34,062 nt of DNA, taken from the IMG/VR virus record IMGVR_UViG_3300031784_000115, positions 1 through 34,062 of that record; one strand, given 5' to 3'. Below the pieces are notes generated by a model. That model made no database searches and was not told where the DNA came from. It saw only the letters and a list, made by a program, of their open reading frames with translations. The stretch is from a virus. Made by a program: the position numbers and the translations under genes. Shown in pieces: positions 1-32,198 of this stretch (its first letter is position 1; every line of letters begins with the position of its first letter).

Positions 1-1430
1 GAGGCGAGGTCTTCAAGGATTACGTCAGTGTCAACCATGAGCCGGTGTTGGTTAAGGACAGGCTCAAGGGTTTCGATGATGCGGAGTTCCTTTTGCTTTG
101 TGTGTCGAACCTCTTCAACGCTGCAGGGGTAAATCGTGCCGAGGTATCTCTTGAGCAACTCAGAGAACATCCCGAGGCCGAGGTTGCTTTCAACAAGTAT
201 TTGCTTGACCTTGAACTCTTTAGCGATAAGAGCCAGCTTTTTAAGGTTCGGTTCGCTGTAACCTCCCCTAAGGCCACCGCTAGCGAGAAGGAAAAGGTTT
301 CCGTTCAGGTAGCTAACTACAGCGTATCCAAGCTCGTCGCTGCCGCGTCCAGAAGGGTCAACGGCCATGACAACCCCGGTGTATTCAAGAAATTCATCCC
401 CTATCTGAGCCGGTTTGTAGAAAAGGTCACCATGAAGCCCAACCGATGGAAGGTCTAGGGCTTTATCGCCGTTAGCCATCCACACGACCTTATTAGGACC
501 GTTTTCACGGTTCAGGCGGAACACACAGAGGTCTCTGAGCTTGAGAGGGTATTTCTCCTCGTCGCTAAGGCTGATATCTAGAAGGAACTGAAGGTTGAAC
601 GTTGAACGTCCAATGGACATTTGACGGGCTTCTAGTTCAGCCCAATCAAAACGTCGAGGGTCTACAGGGTGTCCAGCAAGCCCTGGGTCTTCATCTAGAT
701 CAGCTTGGATCTTGGGTGCTAGACGGTTGCCGTAATAGTTCTTGAGCTTCTTACCAGTGGGGTACAGAGCAGGCCAGATCCTGACGGAGTAACCAGAGAC
801 CTCAAGCTTTGCGTAAACACTGTCTTGGGTGTGAGGCGTACCGAGGAACACGATCTCACCACCAGGCTTGATCACCGAGTCAAACTCTTTAATCGATTCC
901 CGAAGCTTGTCTCGGATTAACTGGGTTTCACAGGACTGTGGTGTTTCAACGTCGTCAGCAACGATGAGATCAGCACGGGAGCCAGTAATCTGCCCAAAGA
1001 TTCCACTGGAACGGACAGAAGGAGACTGGTCTGGTTTCGCGCCGTAAACGTCAAAAGCAACTTTTGAGAACCGTTGGGTGTCGCTAGGGAACAGGTCTTT
1101 GACCATGAACCAGTTTCGTAGCAGGTCATGGCAAAACACGGAGAACGCATCTGCACGGTCCTGAGCTGCAGAGATTACCAGCACCTTACAGTTTGGATCC
1201 CTACGCAGTCTCCACAGCACATAACCAGCCGTTAGGAACGACTTACCACAGCCCCGATACGCCATGATGATGCGTCGGCTAGGGCCGTTCTGAAGGTAGT
1301 CAGCAACTTGATACTGAACAGGGGTAGGGCTAGGAAGCCTTAGGTAGTCCCAAAGGTAGGTAGCAAAAACAGGAAACGACTCTGCAGCTTCCTTAATAAT
1401 CTGTTCAGTCTGTTTGCTTGCTCTTGACAT
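1..1430 (-). CDS. terL: Terminase large subunit, partial (T7 gp19-like), C-terminus cut by window edge
   Basis: This is the ATPase/nuclease motor that packages DNA into the prohead through the portal. Reading from an ATG at 1430 the frame stays open to the left edge, giving 476 codons; T7 gp19 is about 586 residues, so roughly the last 110 are outside the window. Walker A is visible as AYRGCGKS (residues 57-64) and Walker B as LIVADD (155-160) followed by Glu162. The RNase H-like nuclease domain shows AVDPSGRGSDE with Asp358 and a second acidic strand VESNLG with Glu414. The start overlaps the end of the NblA-like gene by 26 bases. I see no frameshift or stop in the frame, so the gene looks intact as far as it goes. 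TerL identity is very secure. Confidence 0.95.
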   Translation of the reverse strand, partial: MSRASKQTEQIIKEAAESFPVFATYLWDYLRLPSPTPVQYQVADYLQNGPSRRIIMAYRGCGKSFLTAGYVLWRLRRDPNCKVLVISAAQDRADAFSVFCHDLLRNWFMVKDLFPSDTQRFSKVAFDVYGAKPDQSPSVRSSGIFGQITGSRADLIVADDVETPQSCETQLIRDKLRESIKEFDSVIKPGGEIVFLGTPHTQDSVYAKLEVSGYSVRIWPALYPTGKKLKNYYGNRLAPKIQADLDEDPGLAGHPVDPRRFDWAELEARQMSIGRSTFNLQFLLDISLSDEEKYPLKLRDLCVFRLNRENGPNKVVWMANGDKALDLPSVGLHGDLFYKPAQIGDEFLEYTGVVMAVDPSGRGSDELGYAVVSYLNGNLFLLASGGLRGGYSEPNLKKLALIAKEFKVKQILVESNLGLGMFSELLKRYLGTIYPCSVEEVRHTKQKELRIIETLEPVLNQHRLMVDTDVILEDLA

Positions 1431-1614
1431 TGACTGCCCACTTGAACATTTGGCTCAAGTTATTCTGCAGGATCACAGTCATTTTTAAGAACTCAAACAG
1501 CATCTTCTCCAGATCTTCCCGAGAGCAGTTAGGGATATCCCGTCTGACTCGTTCTAGGCGTAGCTGCTGTTCTATGGATAGCTCGAAACAGGGCATAGGA
1601 GGTAGTTCATCCAT
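1405..1614 (-). CDS. nblA: NblA-like phycobilisome degradation protein
   Basis: NblA is a small cyanobacterial adaptor that binds phycobiliproteins and presents them to the Clp protease, dismantling the light-harvesting phycobilisome during nutrient starvation. This 69-residue protein has the family layout: a short Pro-rich start (ELPPMPCFELS), the signature LSIEQQLRL (12-20), then SREDLEKMLFE (31-41), and a second predicted helix to about residue 60. From memory it aligns without gaps to cellular NblA of about 60 residues, with extra residues at the C-terminus. It overlaps the HNH gene upstream by 43 bases and TerL downstream by 26 bases, so it is probably co-expressed with packaging genes late in infection. 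No clear ribosome-binding site is visible. A second ATG at residue 7 is possible, but the first keeps the conserved LPP start. The family call is strong; activity in the host is inference. Confidence 0.85.
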   Translation of the reverse strand: MDELPPMPCFELSIEQQLRLERVRRDIPNCSREDLEKMLFEFLKMTVILQNNLSQMFKWAVNVKSKQTD

Positions 1615-2400: not shown

Positions 2401-3501
2401 CTAGCTAGGGTTCTTGATCAAAATAGCCCAGCCAGAGTTAGGACCCTCAACAAGCCACCTTTTGTTCCAATTCTTCTGGCTGTAAGCAACCCCTTCACCT
2501 TTGGAGTGGTTTACATATCCACCACGAACCACATCAGCCTCACCATTGGGGTCATGGTGGATCCAAGCACCTTCTGTAAACCCAATCACTACGCTGTAGT
2601 GCCCAGAGCCGCTAGGAGCCCCTACAGGGCCCTTGTGGAGCCAACCAGCTACTACAGGCCTACCAGCCTCTAACTCGCGTCTGAGAAGCTCTGGGGAGCC
2701 ATTCTGGATGAATTTAGCGTCCAGTCCGAGGTGTCTGAGAGTTTTAAGCTGAGCATCGGCAGAAGTGGAATCACCATACCGAGCACGGATCTTGTTGTAC
2801 TCGTTATCTGTTTTTACCTTGCCGTAGTAGTCAGCAACCATTGCACAACTAGAACTAAAACACTCTCGATAACCATTAGGACCGTTATCCAATTGGTATT
2901 CATACGGCACTTTTAGCAATACGCCTGTTTGCTGTACTTGAGGCTTGTTTGTCTGACGATTAACAATGGAGATTAGTTTGTTTGCATATCGAGGATCAGT
3001 TGCATAACCCTGTGCCTGCAGCTGCTGAGCGGCTTCTGACGCTGTTTTAGCGTTATTTACTCCTTTGTATTGTTTGTAATCTTTGTACCAGCGAATAACG
3101 AGGTATTCAACGCATTCTTTAATAGAAGAGAAATTAAGAAAGCCGTCACGAATAGAAACAGGTACCCCATTAACGTACTCCGTTGTTGAAGTAGTTGTAC
3201 CCTTACCTTTTAAACCAAAATAGTTATGCGTGCCAGATGTATGTTGTCCCCAGTTACTCTCCAAAGCCCACTGAGCAGCAACTAATTCTGGAAACTTTGC
3301 TCCAGCTTCACGAGCAAGCTGCTCTACACCGTCCCACGAGCCGTTACTTGGGATATTGTTCTTAGGACCAGATCGCCACAAATCAGAAAACTTTGCCAAG
3401 GTCCCTGGAGGAATCTGATCCTGCAGGAAATCCAAAGCAAAGTTTTGATGTTCTTGATTGTTGTAATACTTAGCTACGTCACGAAGAGAGATGTCGGCCA
3501 T
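2401..3501 (-). CDS. Two-domain endolysin: glucosaminidase plus C39-like cysteine peptidase
   Basis: A 366-residue lysis enzyme that should cut both glycan and peptide bonds of peptidoglycan. Residues about 55-185 form a FlgJ-type glucosaminidase-like domain: AAQWALESNWG carries the probable catalytic Glu81, followed by the family hallmark HNYFGLKGK (92-100). Residues about 196-362 resemble the papain-like Peptidase_C39_2 family: VPYEYQ with oxyanion Gln203, ECFSSSCAMV with probable nucleophile Cys214, GSGHYSVVIGF with His301, and HHDPNG with Asp317. All expected catalytic residues are present in both halves. No signal peptide is seen, so export would need a holin. Its start overlaps the 82-aa membrane protein gene by 23 bases. 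T7 itself uses an unrelated amidase (gp3.5) for lysis. Confidence 0.85.
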   Translation of the reverse strand: MADISLRDVAKYYNNQEHQNFALDFLQDQIPPGTLAKFSDLWRSGPKNNIPSNGSWDGVEQLAREAGAKFPELVAAQWALESNWGQHTSGTHNYFGLKGKGTTTSTTEYVNGVPVSIRDGFLNFSSIKECVEYLVIRWYKDYKQYKGVNNAKTASEAAQQLQAQGYATDPRYANKLISIVNRQTNKPQVQQTGVLLKVPYEYQLDNGPNGYRECFSSSCAMVADYYGKVKTDNEYNKIRARYGDSTSADAQLKTLRHLGLDAKFIQNGSPELLRRELEAGRPVVAGWLHKGPVGAPSGSGHYSVVIGFTEGAWIHHDPNGEADVVRGGYVNHSKGEGVAYSQKNWNKRWLVEGPNSGWAILIKNPS

Positions 3502-21909: not shown

Positions 21910-22547
21910 CAGCGATCAAGGATATCAGGACCAAAAGTAGTAATCACACGACCGCCATACATATCATCAGGACCGCTGATGAAGTTGTAGTTACCAGCCA
22001 TGTCCTCAGTACGCTTCAAAATTTGAAGAGCGTTTTGTTCGTCTTGTGATGTATAAGCTTCAAGACTAGAGGAAGTCACAGCACGGTTAGCAAACATCCT
22101 ACCGGCTCGGATCATAATGTACCGTTTGCCAGTTTCTGGGATGCTGTCCCAATCCAACTCTTCGACAATCTCAGCAACTAGATCGCTGGTATTACCAACC
22201 GTAGCTACACCCAGACTGCCCCTCAAATCGTATGTATTCTTAGCGCGATCAAAAAGCCGCAGACCACGAAGAACAAACCTTTGAGACGGATACAGCAGCG
22301 GATTAAACCGTACAGCCAGGGTGTTGCTAGGAAGTTGTGATTGACCTGTAGAAGCGTCCAGAGGAATGGAGTCATACAGCATCGTGTTCCAAGACCAACC
22401 AGCACCTTGAACCTCTCGGCTCACTTCATCCAAGGTGCGTTCTGCGAGAGCTACATCGCCCACTAGAGGGGGGTTAAGGGAGTTAACAGGAGCTTCGCCA
22501 ATGATTGCTAGCAGCGTATTAACTGCACTGAGCTTTGAAGTCGCCAA
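21909..22547 (-). CDS. Tail tubular protein A, adaptor (T7 gp11-like)
   Basis: A 212-residue adaptor that links portal and nozzle. Family phrases include LSAVNTLLAIIGEAPVNSL, ERTLDEVSREVQGAGWSWNT and MIRAGRMFANRAV. The start is a TTG, chosen because GGAGGA lies 5 bases upstream and the protein then begins with the expected MATSKLSAVN. That ribosome-binding site lies inside the last codons of the inserted homing-endonuclease-like gene, and the two genes overlap by 29 bases. The gene is intact. It is first of the tail module after the capsid terminator. Confidence 0.9.
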   Translation of the reverse strand: MATSKLSAVNTLLAIIGEAPVNSLNPPLVGDVALAERTLDEVSREVQGAGWSWNTMLYDSIPLDASTGQSQLPSNTLAVRFNPLLYPSQRFVLRGLRLFDRAKNTYDLRGSLGVATVGNTSDLVAEIVEELDWDSIPETGKRYIMIRAGRMFANRAVTSSSLEAYTSQDEQNALQILKRTEDMAGNYNFISGPDDMYGGRVITTFGPDILDR

Positions 22548-22866
22548 GGAATTCCTCCATTTTTAAACGGCGACGCTCGCCCATATATGGCAGTAGAGCG
22601 TCCACAATTTCTTTCACTTTAGCTTGACGGCTTACTTGAGCTACATATAAGTCTTTCCACTTTGGATTTTTGTGAGCACGAGGTTTGAATTTAACTTGAA
22701 GATCAAAGATATTTGCAAAACGTTCGACAATATCTTTGTCTGTCATTTCAATACCAATTCGCCATGAATTGTTTTTGTAACCTCCATGTCCAGCTTTACC
22801 AGCAATGCAAATGTAACCTTCGCCTTCAAACAAACCAGCAGCCCAAGTAAGTTCGCAATAAGACAT
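22519..22866 (-). CDS. LAGLIDADG-type homing endonuclease-like protein
   Basis: A free-standing 115-residue protein with one LAGLIDADG-like motif, LTWAAGLFEGEGYI (6-19), followed by the family pattern WRIGIEMTDKDIVERFANIF and a C-terminal LLPYMGERRRLKMEEF. One motif implies that it works as a homodimer. Such proteins cut an unoccupied site in related phages and spread by repair. It sits between the capsid and tail tubular A genes. Its ATG directly follows the terminator T-run, and its 3' end overlaps tail tubular A. No ribosome-binding site is visible, so expression may depend on read-through. It resembles free-standing genes that invade intergenic phage DNA; no intron is indicated because both neighbours are intact. 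Confidence 0.85.
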   Translation of the reverse strand: MSYCELTWAAGLFEGEGYICIAGKAGHGGYKNNSWRIGIEMTDKDIVERFANIFDLQVKFKPRAHKNPKWKDLYVAQVSRQAKVKEIVDALLPYMGERRRLKMEEFLGDFKAQCS

Positions 22867-30356: not shown

Positions 30357-30709
30357 AAGTCCGAGAGATCGGCGGGTTTGTAGTTAGGTCCTTTTTGTAC
30401 CTTTCCGTTGACTTTGGTGAAAGGAAACTTAGACCAGTTGGAAAGATAAACTCGTCCAAAAGCATCGTCAGGGTCCACACCATGAAGATGGAGAAGGCCA
30501 TATGTGACCCAAATGAGGTCGCAAGCTTCCTTGATGATCTGCGGGCGCTTCTCGTTGCGGAAGGCGTACATGAGTTCGTAGAACTCCTCCTCGACATAGG
30601 TGAGTTGTTTCTCAAGCGCCTCGATGTAGTCATCAGAATCAGGACTGATTAGTTGGTCCGCTTTTTGCATCCAAGCTTGTACTAGTTCCGCATTGGAAGT
30701 CAGCATCAT
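30353..30709 (-). CDS. mazG: MazG-like nucleotide pyrophosphohydrolase
   Basis: A 118-residue single-domain MazG-type protein. The metal-binding pattern is visible as EEEFYE on one helix and EACDLIW on the next, giving the EExxE and ExxD signature that binds Mg for nucleoside triphosphate hydrolysis. The C-terminus (AFGRVYLSNWSKFP, GKVQKGPNYKPADLSD) matches the form common in phages. Phage MazG proteins may recycle nucleotides from degraded host DNA or alter alarmone levels. I picked the ATG at 30709 (a second ATG follows directly). The start overlaps the DUF3310-like gene by 71 bases, so the exact start is uncertain. Confidence 0.85.
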   Translation of the reverse strand: MMLTSNAELVQAWMQKADQLISPDSDDYIEALEKQLTYVEEEFYELMYAFRNEKRPQIIKEACDLIWVTYGLLHLHGVDPDDAFGRVYLSNWSKFPFTKVNGKVQKGPNYKPADLSDL

Positions 30710-30977
30710 CTGCGTCAAGGATCGAATCGTAAAGGTTTGCTTGGCGTTGAGCCCACTTGGTGTCCCACTCTTCTGATCGTTTGATCAGTCGGTCAAGATA
30801 CCAACGAGCTTTCTTGAGATCTTCGGTACCGTTCTTGTGTTGGTACCTAGTCACATACTTGATGATGTTGCCTTCAATGAAGTCAAAGCAGTGACTCTCG
30901 ATGTAATCAATACATTCAATTACCCCCTCGTCGAACGCGTAGTGGTGGGGTCGTATTGGATCGTTGGTGGTGTCCAT
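30639..30977 (-). CDS. DUF3310-like protein
   Basis: A 112-residue protein with the DUF3310 pattern: HHYAFDEGVIECIDYIESHC, FIEGNIIKYVTRYQHKNGT and DLKKARWYLDRLIK. The family is common in phages, located with nucleotide metabolism and replication genes; some annotations call it a nucleotide kinase, but its reaction is not established to my knowledge. The last 25 residues, past about residue 87, are low-complexity and may be shaped by the overlap with mazG. The start overlaps the exonuclease gene by 58 bases. Confidence 0.8.
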   Translation of the reverse strand: MDTTNDPIRPHHYAFDEGVIECIDYIESHCFDFIEGNIIKYVTRYQHKNGTEDLKKARWYLDRLIKRSEEWDTKWAQRQANLYDSILDADDADFQCGTSTSLDAKSGPTNQS

Positions 30978-31699
30978 AGTTGAATCTCATTGAGGGTGTA
31001 CTCAGTGTCACGAAGGATGCGAGCGAGGCGTGCTTGGTTCAAGGCGTAGTCAGCACTTAAACCTTTCTTTGCGTACTGCTGAACTACAGTTCGCCATGCG
31101 GAGGCTTCTGAGAAGTCTTCTGCTGGGATGAGCTTCTCTGCTGTCTTCGGGCCAATCCCAGGGCAACCAGGATAGCCGTCAACGGAATCGCCGGTAAGAG
31201 TCTGACGATAGTAAAAGACATCAGCTTCAAGTTGAGAGATGGTAAAGATGTTTCCGTCGTTATCAAGGTGGGTACCAGGGATCTGTTTTAGATCCTTGTC
31301 ACCAGACCACATAACGACTTGATCTTCATGGCGAGTGGTGAGAATGCCTAGAACATCATCGGCTTCCAACCTGTGCCAACACTCAGAAGGAAACTGTTGC
31401 TCAGCCCACCGTCGAATTGCCAAGTACCCAACTGGTTTCCGACGATGGTTTCCAGCACGGTTTCCTTTGTAGGACGGTTCAATGTCCTTTCGGAAGTTTT
31501 GATCAGCAGTCCAACAAAGCGTGAATCGATCTGATTGTGCTTGGTTGCGCTTGATATCCAAAAGCTCATTGAACATCAACTGGGCTTCTTTGACTGGTAA
31601 GTGAGTCGTGATGATGTCAGGACACCATTCGATTTCAACTTCGCAAGCGGCCACTGTTTGATACAGCAGCATATCTGCGTCAAGCAGTAGCCACGTCAT
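30920..31699 (-). CDS. 5'-3' exonuclease (T7 gp6-like, flap nuclease family)
   Basis: A 259-residue exonuclease that would degrade host DNA and remove RNA primers. Acidic metal-binding residues appear in LLLDADMLLYQ (Asp7, Asp9), EADDVLGIL and VVMWSGDKDLKQIPG, followed by the helix-three-turn-helix DNA-binding loop PGCPGIGPKTAEKL. The phrase DIEPSYKGNR is also typical. The ATG at 31699 has a textbook ribosome-binding site, AAGGAGG, 5 bases upstream; this lies within the end of the endonuclease VII-like gene. The C-terminal 19 codons overlap the DUF3310-like gene. Identification is strong. Confidence 0.92.
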   Translation of the reverse strand: MTWLLLDADMLLYQTVAACEVEIEWCPDIITTHLPVKEAQLMFNELLDIKRNQAQSDRFTLCWTADQNFRKDIEPSYKGNRAGNHRRKPVGYLAIRRWAEQQFPSECWHRLEADDVLGILTTRHEDQVVMWSGDKDLKQIPGTHLDNDGNIFTISQLEADVFYYRQTLTGDSVDGYPGCPGIGPKTAEKLIPAEDFSEASAWRTVVQQYAKKGLSADYALNQARLARILRDTEYTLNEIQLWTPPTIQYDPTTTRSTRG

Positions 31700-32198
31700 C
31701 AGCACCTCCTTGATGGGTCCCTAGCTTATTAACCCTGGCTAGGTAGTCCACTGCTTTTAGGACGCCTTCAAGATTGTCACCAAGCTTTCCGATGCCAGTG
31801 TTGCAATTGTTACAAAGCCAACCTCTGTGTTCATGGCTGTCGTGGCAGTGATCCCAATGCAACTTTTGTTCGGTAAGACCGCAACATTCACAAGGTGTGC
31901 CTAGCTCAGGAGCCTGCTGCTTGCGTCGTAGCTTTTGGTAGTGACTCATCTGGCGGCAGTTACAAGAGAGACATTCAGGGCGTCTCCAAGTACCGTTCCT
32001 ACCGAATAGCTCTACCGGCTTGGTTTGTTTACAGATCTTGCAGGTCTTAGTGGCACTCTGCCCAGTTGGATCCAACCTTGTATTCCGCACCGATTTCAAT
32101 ACGGACTCCAAGTGCTTCTCCTGCCAAGGCAGCAGATCTGACAGCGATTCCTCCGAGCTCTTCTGCTCGTTCAGCTGCGACTGAGAATTGGATTTCAT
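31680..32198 (-). CDS. Endonuclease VII-like (recombination endonuclease VII family) protein, start uncertain
   Basis: The C-terminal 115 residues show the endonuclease VII pattern: a zinc pair CKICK, a second CLSC pair, CECCGL, then the nuclease signature WDHCHDSHEHRGWLCNNCN, followed by IGKLGDN. T4 endonuclease VII cleaves branched DNA and Holliday junctions; in this phage the protein could do the job of T7 gp3, or act as a mobile HNH nuclease. The stretch before about 32050 overlaps the polymerase C-terminus and looks like a shadow of it, so translation may begin late, for example at a TTG at 32075 (131 residues); ATG codons at 32198 and 32264 are the other options. None has a good ribosome-binding site. 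Confidence 0.8.
   Translation of the reverse strand: MKSNSQSQLNEQKSSEESLSDLLPWQEKHLESVLKSVRNTRLDPTGQSATKTCKICKQTKPVELFGRNGTWRRPECLSCNCRQMSHYQKLRRKQQAPELGTPCECCGLTEQKLHWDHCHDSHEHRGWLCNNCNTGIGKLGDNLEGVLKAVDYLARVNKLGTHQGGADDVATA

Follow-up and report, generated by a model that had tools for sequence, protein, structure and literature searches.

Gene organization at the terminase locus

The window, that is, the whole 34,062-nucleotide stretch analyzed here (positions 1–34,062 of virus record IMGVR_UViG_3300031784_000115), carried a packaging gene cluster on the minus strand in the order endolysin, a small ORF of unknown function, small terminase subunit (TerS), HNH endonuclease, nblA, and large terminase subunit (TerL). 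The endolysin gene was located at 2401–3501. TerS (1987–2259, 90 aa) and the HNH endonuclease (1572–1946, 124 aa) were assigned by PHROG matches with E values of 5e-11 and 8e-31, respectively. TerL (3–1430), whose C-terminus lies off the window, matched its PHROG family with E = 1e-90. The nblA gene (1405–1614) encoded a 69-aa NblA-family protein from an ATG start codon. It overlapped TerL by 26 bp (1405–1430), and its start overlapped the HNH gene by 43 bp (1572–1614). The initial annotation had described nblA as overlapping the terminase genes; this was correct for TerL, but TerS was separated from nblA by the HNH gene. A second HNH-endonuclease ORF (22519–22866) was flanked by the major capsid gene and the gene for tail tubular protein A. 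No psbA, hli, or tRNA gene was found in the window.

In relatives with available flanks, HNH directly preceded nblA and TerL followed it, and the order TerS-HNH-nblA-TerL with overlapping reading frames was found in more than 100 contigs. The 94 distinct TerS–TerL junction sequences contained HNH and nblA in 82 cases, HNH only in 5 cases (P-RSP2 among them), and neither gene in 7 cases; these counts are not frequencies because the loci were gathered with chosen queries. No junction among the 94 carried nblA without HNH. In four loci (L019, L037, L042, and L051) the distance from nblA to the downstream TerL start was about 0.5 kb greater than usual. A 126-kb contig (L337, IMGVR_UViG_3300042503_000838, 125842 bases) also carried a TerS-nblA locus of this phage type, whose genomes are roughly 40 kb long; the contig may be a chimera or a concatemer, or may represent a different genome type.

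The phage had been regarded as a T7-like cyanophage. The structural and packaging genes did follow the T7-like order expected of Autographiviridae, but a T7-type single-subunit RNA polymerase was not found in P-RSP2, in the window, which excludes the TerL–DNA polymerase interval, or in relatives spanning that interval. In these relatives the interval contained thyX, an SSB-like gene, an endonuclease-like gene, and primase/helicase. Over 4.8 kb, the promoter scan yielded a single weak match, whereas 4.6 would be expected by chance alone. As the lineage yielded no T7-type RNA polymerase, late expression of nblA, a suggestion that relies on T7 logic, is weakly grounded. Co-transcription of nblA with terL is plausible because their reading frames overlap.

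Identification of the 69-aa protein as an NblA-family member

The predicted product contained LSIEQQLRL followed by SREDLEKML, in the order first described; the strand is minus. Against PF04485, it scored 28.7 bits (E = 1.8e-6; curated cut-off 25), and this was the single PF04485 match in the record. All 26 aligned homologs also matched PF04485 (E ≤ 0.1). A profile built from cyanobacterial NblA only gave 24.9 bits, compared with 10.4 bits for the best of 2000 shuffled sequences and 4.8 bits for the second-best of the 533 ORFs of the window. The S. elongatus NblA crystal sequence (PDB 3cs5) was matched over residues 4–56 with E = 1e-8 by the single sequence and 5e-10 with a profile, and Anabaena NblA (1ojh) was matched weakly. 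The score was modest, since cyanobacterial copies reached about 46–94 bits against PF04485 among the matches listed. The NCBIfam equivalog model NF045916 has a cut-off of 100 bits and gave 33.3 bits, so the protein is called a family member and not an equivalog. No matching family was found in PHROGs.

The AlphaFold2 monomer showed a helix-loop-helix with helices at residues 14–29 and 32–67 and a mean pLDDT of 87. The solved NblA structure is described as a helix-loop-helix (PMC7966870), and both the shape and the length of 69 aa agree with NblA proteins of roughly 55–70 aa. Foldseek against PDB returned nothing significant of any kind for this short two-helix chain, which is a hard query, and support for the fold therefore comes from prediction plus sequence. 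The NblA homology proposed by the initial annotation is supported by the match to its Pfam family and by the predicted two-helix fold.

The window protein shares PF04485, length, the EQQ and SREDLE motifs, and the helix-loop-helix with cyanobacterial NblA proteins (S. elongatus 3cs5, Anabaena 1ojh, and Synechocystis NblA1/NblA2). It differs from them in having Leu after EQQ where the cyanobacterial proteins have Phe, and its conserved C-terminus, ILQNNLSQVFKWA, is unlike the cyanobacterial sequences. The C-terminus is the phycobilisome-binding end of NblA (PMC7760959).

Relatives of nblA were found in at least 102 viral contigs, and each near-complete record held a single copy. The invariant residues of the family included P5, P6, M7, P8, E15, Q16, R32, L35, and E36, and, toward the C-terminus, L49, Q50, N51, N52, L53, F57, W59, and A60. 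The core of the gene (codons 15–59, outside both overlaps) had a median dN/dS of 0.16 over 48 distinct sequences, and the shifted frames of the same strand contained stops in all 48. The core codons are under purifying selection. A chance ORF at this position was ruled out by the Pfam score, the shuffle control, and the selection analysis. The results show that nblA is a real, conserved gene in a common, uncultured cyanopodovirus lineage represented by more than 100 viral contigs. The search of genome contigs with the phage-alignment profile found no cellular relative.

Comparison with P-RSP2 and its clade

The nearest cultured genome was Prochlorococcus phage P-RSP2 (HQ332139), with identities of 87% for TerL, 86.5% for the portal protein, and 85% for the major capsid protein. 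P-RSP2 shares the order TerS-HNH-TerL with the window but lacks nblA. Its HNH gene (65% identity) overlaps TerL by 8 bp with nothing between them, and no NblA-like match was found at this junction or in the whole record. psbA was also not found in P-RSP2, which has a GC content of 34% and an hli match. P-RSP2 was isolated on Prochlorococcus MIT9302, and Prochlorococcus has neither phycobilisomes nor nblA (PMC7439483).

On the TerL trees, presence and absence of nblA corresponded to one change. Mean locus GC was 46.9% with nblA, 39.9% with neither gene, and 33.9% with HNH only. Rooting with distant outgroups placed the clade without nblA inside the clade with nblA, which would mean loss of the gene. 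A tree that holds the nblA-bearing sequences together was also compatible with the data (AU p = 0.465). The absence of nblA marks a sister clade that includes a Prochlorococcus phage; the contrast with phycobilisome-less hosts is drawn from this one isolate.

NblA in other cyanophages

A second position of nblA was compared in four isolate genomes and one fosmid. An NblA-like ORF was found at the end of the exonuclease gene in S-TIP37, S-RIP2, KBS-P-1A, S-SRP01, and fosmid MedDCM-OCT-S28-C3. The isolates, like the window, carry a small NblA-family ORF in an Autographiviridae cyanophage, and identity with the window NblA was about 30–35% for these five sequences. Both groups share an LPPxP..EQQF/L start and a C-terminal pattern N[LF]xLxN..S..[FV]K; the latter was absent from the cyanobacterial sequences compared. 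The two groups differ in gene position. In the cultured cyanopodoviruses, nblA follows the exonuclease gene beside MazG and ribonucleotide reductase, whereas in the window it lies between HNH and TerL. S-TIP37 has the order exonuclease-nblA-DUF3310, while in the window (30639–31705, minus strand) the exonuclease gene directly overlaps the DUF3310-type gene (30920–30977), leaving the slot empty. A single phage-NblA clade across both positions was compatible with the data (AU p = 0.405), on a poorly resolved tree of 50–70 columns. The ORF is often unannotated in the cultured phages; in S-TIP37 (L084:12467-12700) and fosmid AP013539 (L085:761-1036), the NblA-like ORF after the exonuclease had no annotated gene of its own.

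The NblA proteins of the freshwater phages Ma-LMM01, MaMV-DC, and PaV-LD are phage-borne like that of the window, but these phages are of other types and have bloom-forming cyanobacteria as hosts. Their nblA is expressed during infection, and phycobilin declines (PMC9602691).

Host assignment and host NblA genes

The endolysin matched 159 phage records, every one a cyanophage and 156 of them named Synechococcus phages. The tail-fibre protein resembled those of several Synechococcus phages and of phages of other bacteria. Judged indirectly, from the endolysin matches, the host is probably a phycobilisome-bearing picocyanobacterium, Synechococcus or Cyanobium.

Picocyanobacteria had been described as often lacking nblA of their own. 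This was true of the canonical family: only 2 of 300 picocyanobacterial-family genomes had a PF04485 match above the cut-off, one of which (L193) was a phage contig, whereas 58 of the 60 Synechocystis-order genomes contained canonical NblA. It was not true of the wider family, as divergent NblA-like genes were present in 207 of the 300 genomes. Comparison of this divergent family with the phage profile gave an hhalign probability of 95% (E = 4e-8). Since these genes are so widespread and are related to the phage profile, the hosts probably own a divergent NblA. The similarity to phage NblA is weak and at profile level. Most of the picocyanobacterial proteins fall under the PF04485 cut-off, without the LPPxP start and without the C-terminal motif of the phages.

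Host nblA counts from genome bins can be inflated because phage contigs sit in bins. Both L193 and L195, the latter below the cut-off, were T7-like phage contigs with the order exonuclease-nblA-MazG in picocyanobacterial bins. In the picocyanobacterial loci L201, L205, L207, L210, L211, L213, and L214, divergent NblA-like small genes, mostly under the PF04485 cut-off, were paired on opposite strands about 0.5–1 kb apart.

Recent capture of the gene from a picocyanobacterial host was considered and was unsupported. The phage copies gave 42 bits with S. elongatus NblA, compared with about 17–25 bits with picocyanobacterial proteins, and the tree of 50–70 columns was poorly resolved.

Proposed function and alternatives

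NblA bridges ClpC and phycobiliproteins (PMC7966870). Expression of phage NblA proteins, both freshwater ones and ones from marine viral metagenomes, is reported to lead to loss of phycobilin, the marine-metagenome genes having been expressed in S. elongatus (PMC9602691). The gene in the window probably encodes a phage NblA, predicted to act as a ClpC adaptor for phycobilisome proteolysis. In the proposed sequence of events, the phage would infect a phycobilisome-bearing picocyanobacterium, probably Synechococcus or Cyanobium. Translation of nblA would use the transcript of the packaging genes and would be coupled, through the overlaps, to that of HNH and TerL. The helix-loop-helix adaptor would then link phycobiliproteins to the host ClpC-Clp protease. 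Dismantling of the antenna would release amino acids and lower light capture. Weighing against this reading are the modest PF04485 score, the shortfall on the equivalog model, and a C-terminus that departs from canonical NblA at the phycobilisome-binding end. For the window NblA, we infer dimerization, binding of ClpC and phycobiliproteins, bleaching, benefit, and timing.

Three other explanations were weighed. It is unlikely, though the best of the three, that the NblA fold and the ClpC contact are kept but retuned, so that the protein brings other cargo to Clp or shields phage proteins by occupying ClpC. The divergence from canonical NblA (under the equivalog cut-off) and the phage group's own C-terminal motif, invariant across the family, would agree with such a change. 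The N-terminal signature LPPxP..LSxEQQ..SREDLE is nevertheless close to that of S. elongatus NblA, bleaching has been reported for a distantly related NblA from a marine phage (PMC9602691), and nblA is absent from the clade that holds the phage of a phycobilisome-less host.

HNH proteins encoded next to terminase genes can take part in packaging. If the NblA-like hairpin of helices acted there together with HNH and terminase, this would explain why nblA, wherever its flanks are available, invariably follows HNH, precedes TerL, and overlaps both reading frames. Such a packaging role is very improbable: P-RSP2 has TerS-HNH-TerL and packages its DNA in the absence of nblA, other relatives have neither gene between TerS and TerL, and the NblA ORF of related phages lies far from the terminase. 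Equally remote is the possibility that nblA travels with a mobile HNH cassette, spread by homing and not kept for function. The three junction states (none; HNH; HNH with nblA) and the presence of HNH wherever nblA occurs in the junctions examined might suggest it, but the purifying selection and the single, unscattered change on the TerL tree oppose it.

With a phage NblA as the preferred reading, its distribution can be tentatively explained as follows. Among P-RSP2-like phages, nblA may track the host antenna, being kept on phycobilisome-bearing Synechococcus or Cyanobium and absent on Prochlorococcus, with one gain or loss at the HNH–TerL junction. Through its place in the packaging operon, antenna dismantling would be linked to the assembly of virions in hosts without canonical NblA.

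Relation to known phage NblA and significance

Phage NblA itself is already established. The initial annotation placed it in freshwater cyanophages and at least one uncultured marine cyanophage. Both are known, but the statement falls short, as T7-like cyanophage isolates with the gene are many: Nadel et al. 2019, as cited in PMC9602691, predicted nblA for 14 isolates of cyanopodoviruses as well as for one cyanomyovirus, and reported activity for the NblA of an uncultured marine phage. No description was found of the P-RSP2-like nblA lineage, its HNH–TerL placement, or the contrast between sister clades with and without nblA. These look new, although the environmental set of Nadel 2019 may include the group.

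Work on cyanophage photosynthesis genes has mostly dealt with sustaining the light reactions (psbA, hli), whereas the gene in the window is predicted to dismantle the antenna. nblA marks a common, uncultured cyanopodovirus lineage. The sister clades with and without nblA, one of which contains a cultured Prochlorococcus phage, provide a ready comparison for the purpose of phage NblA. This comparison could show whether the presence of nblA follows the antenna type of the host.
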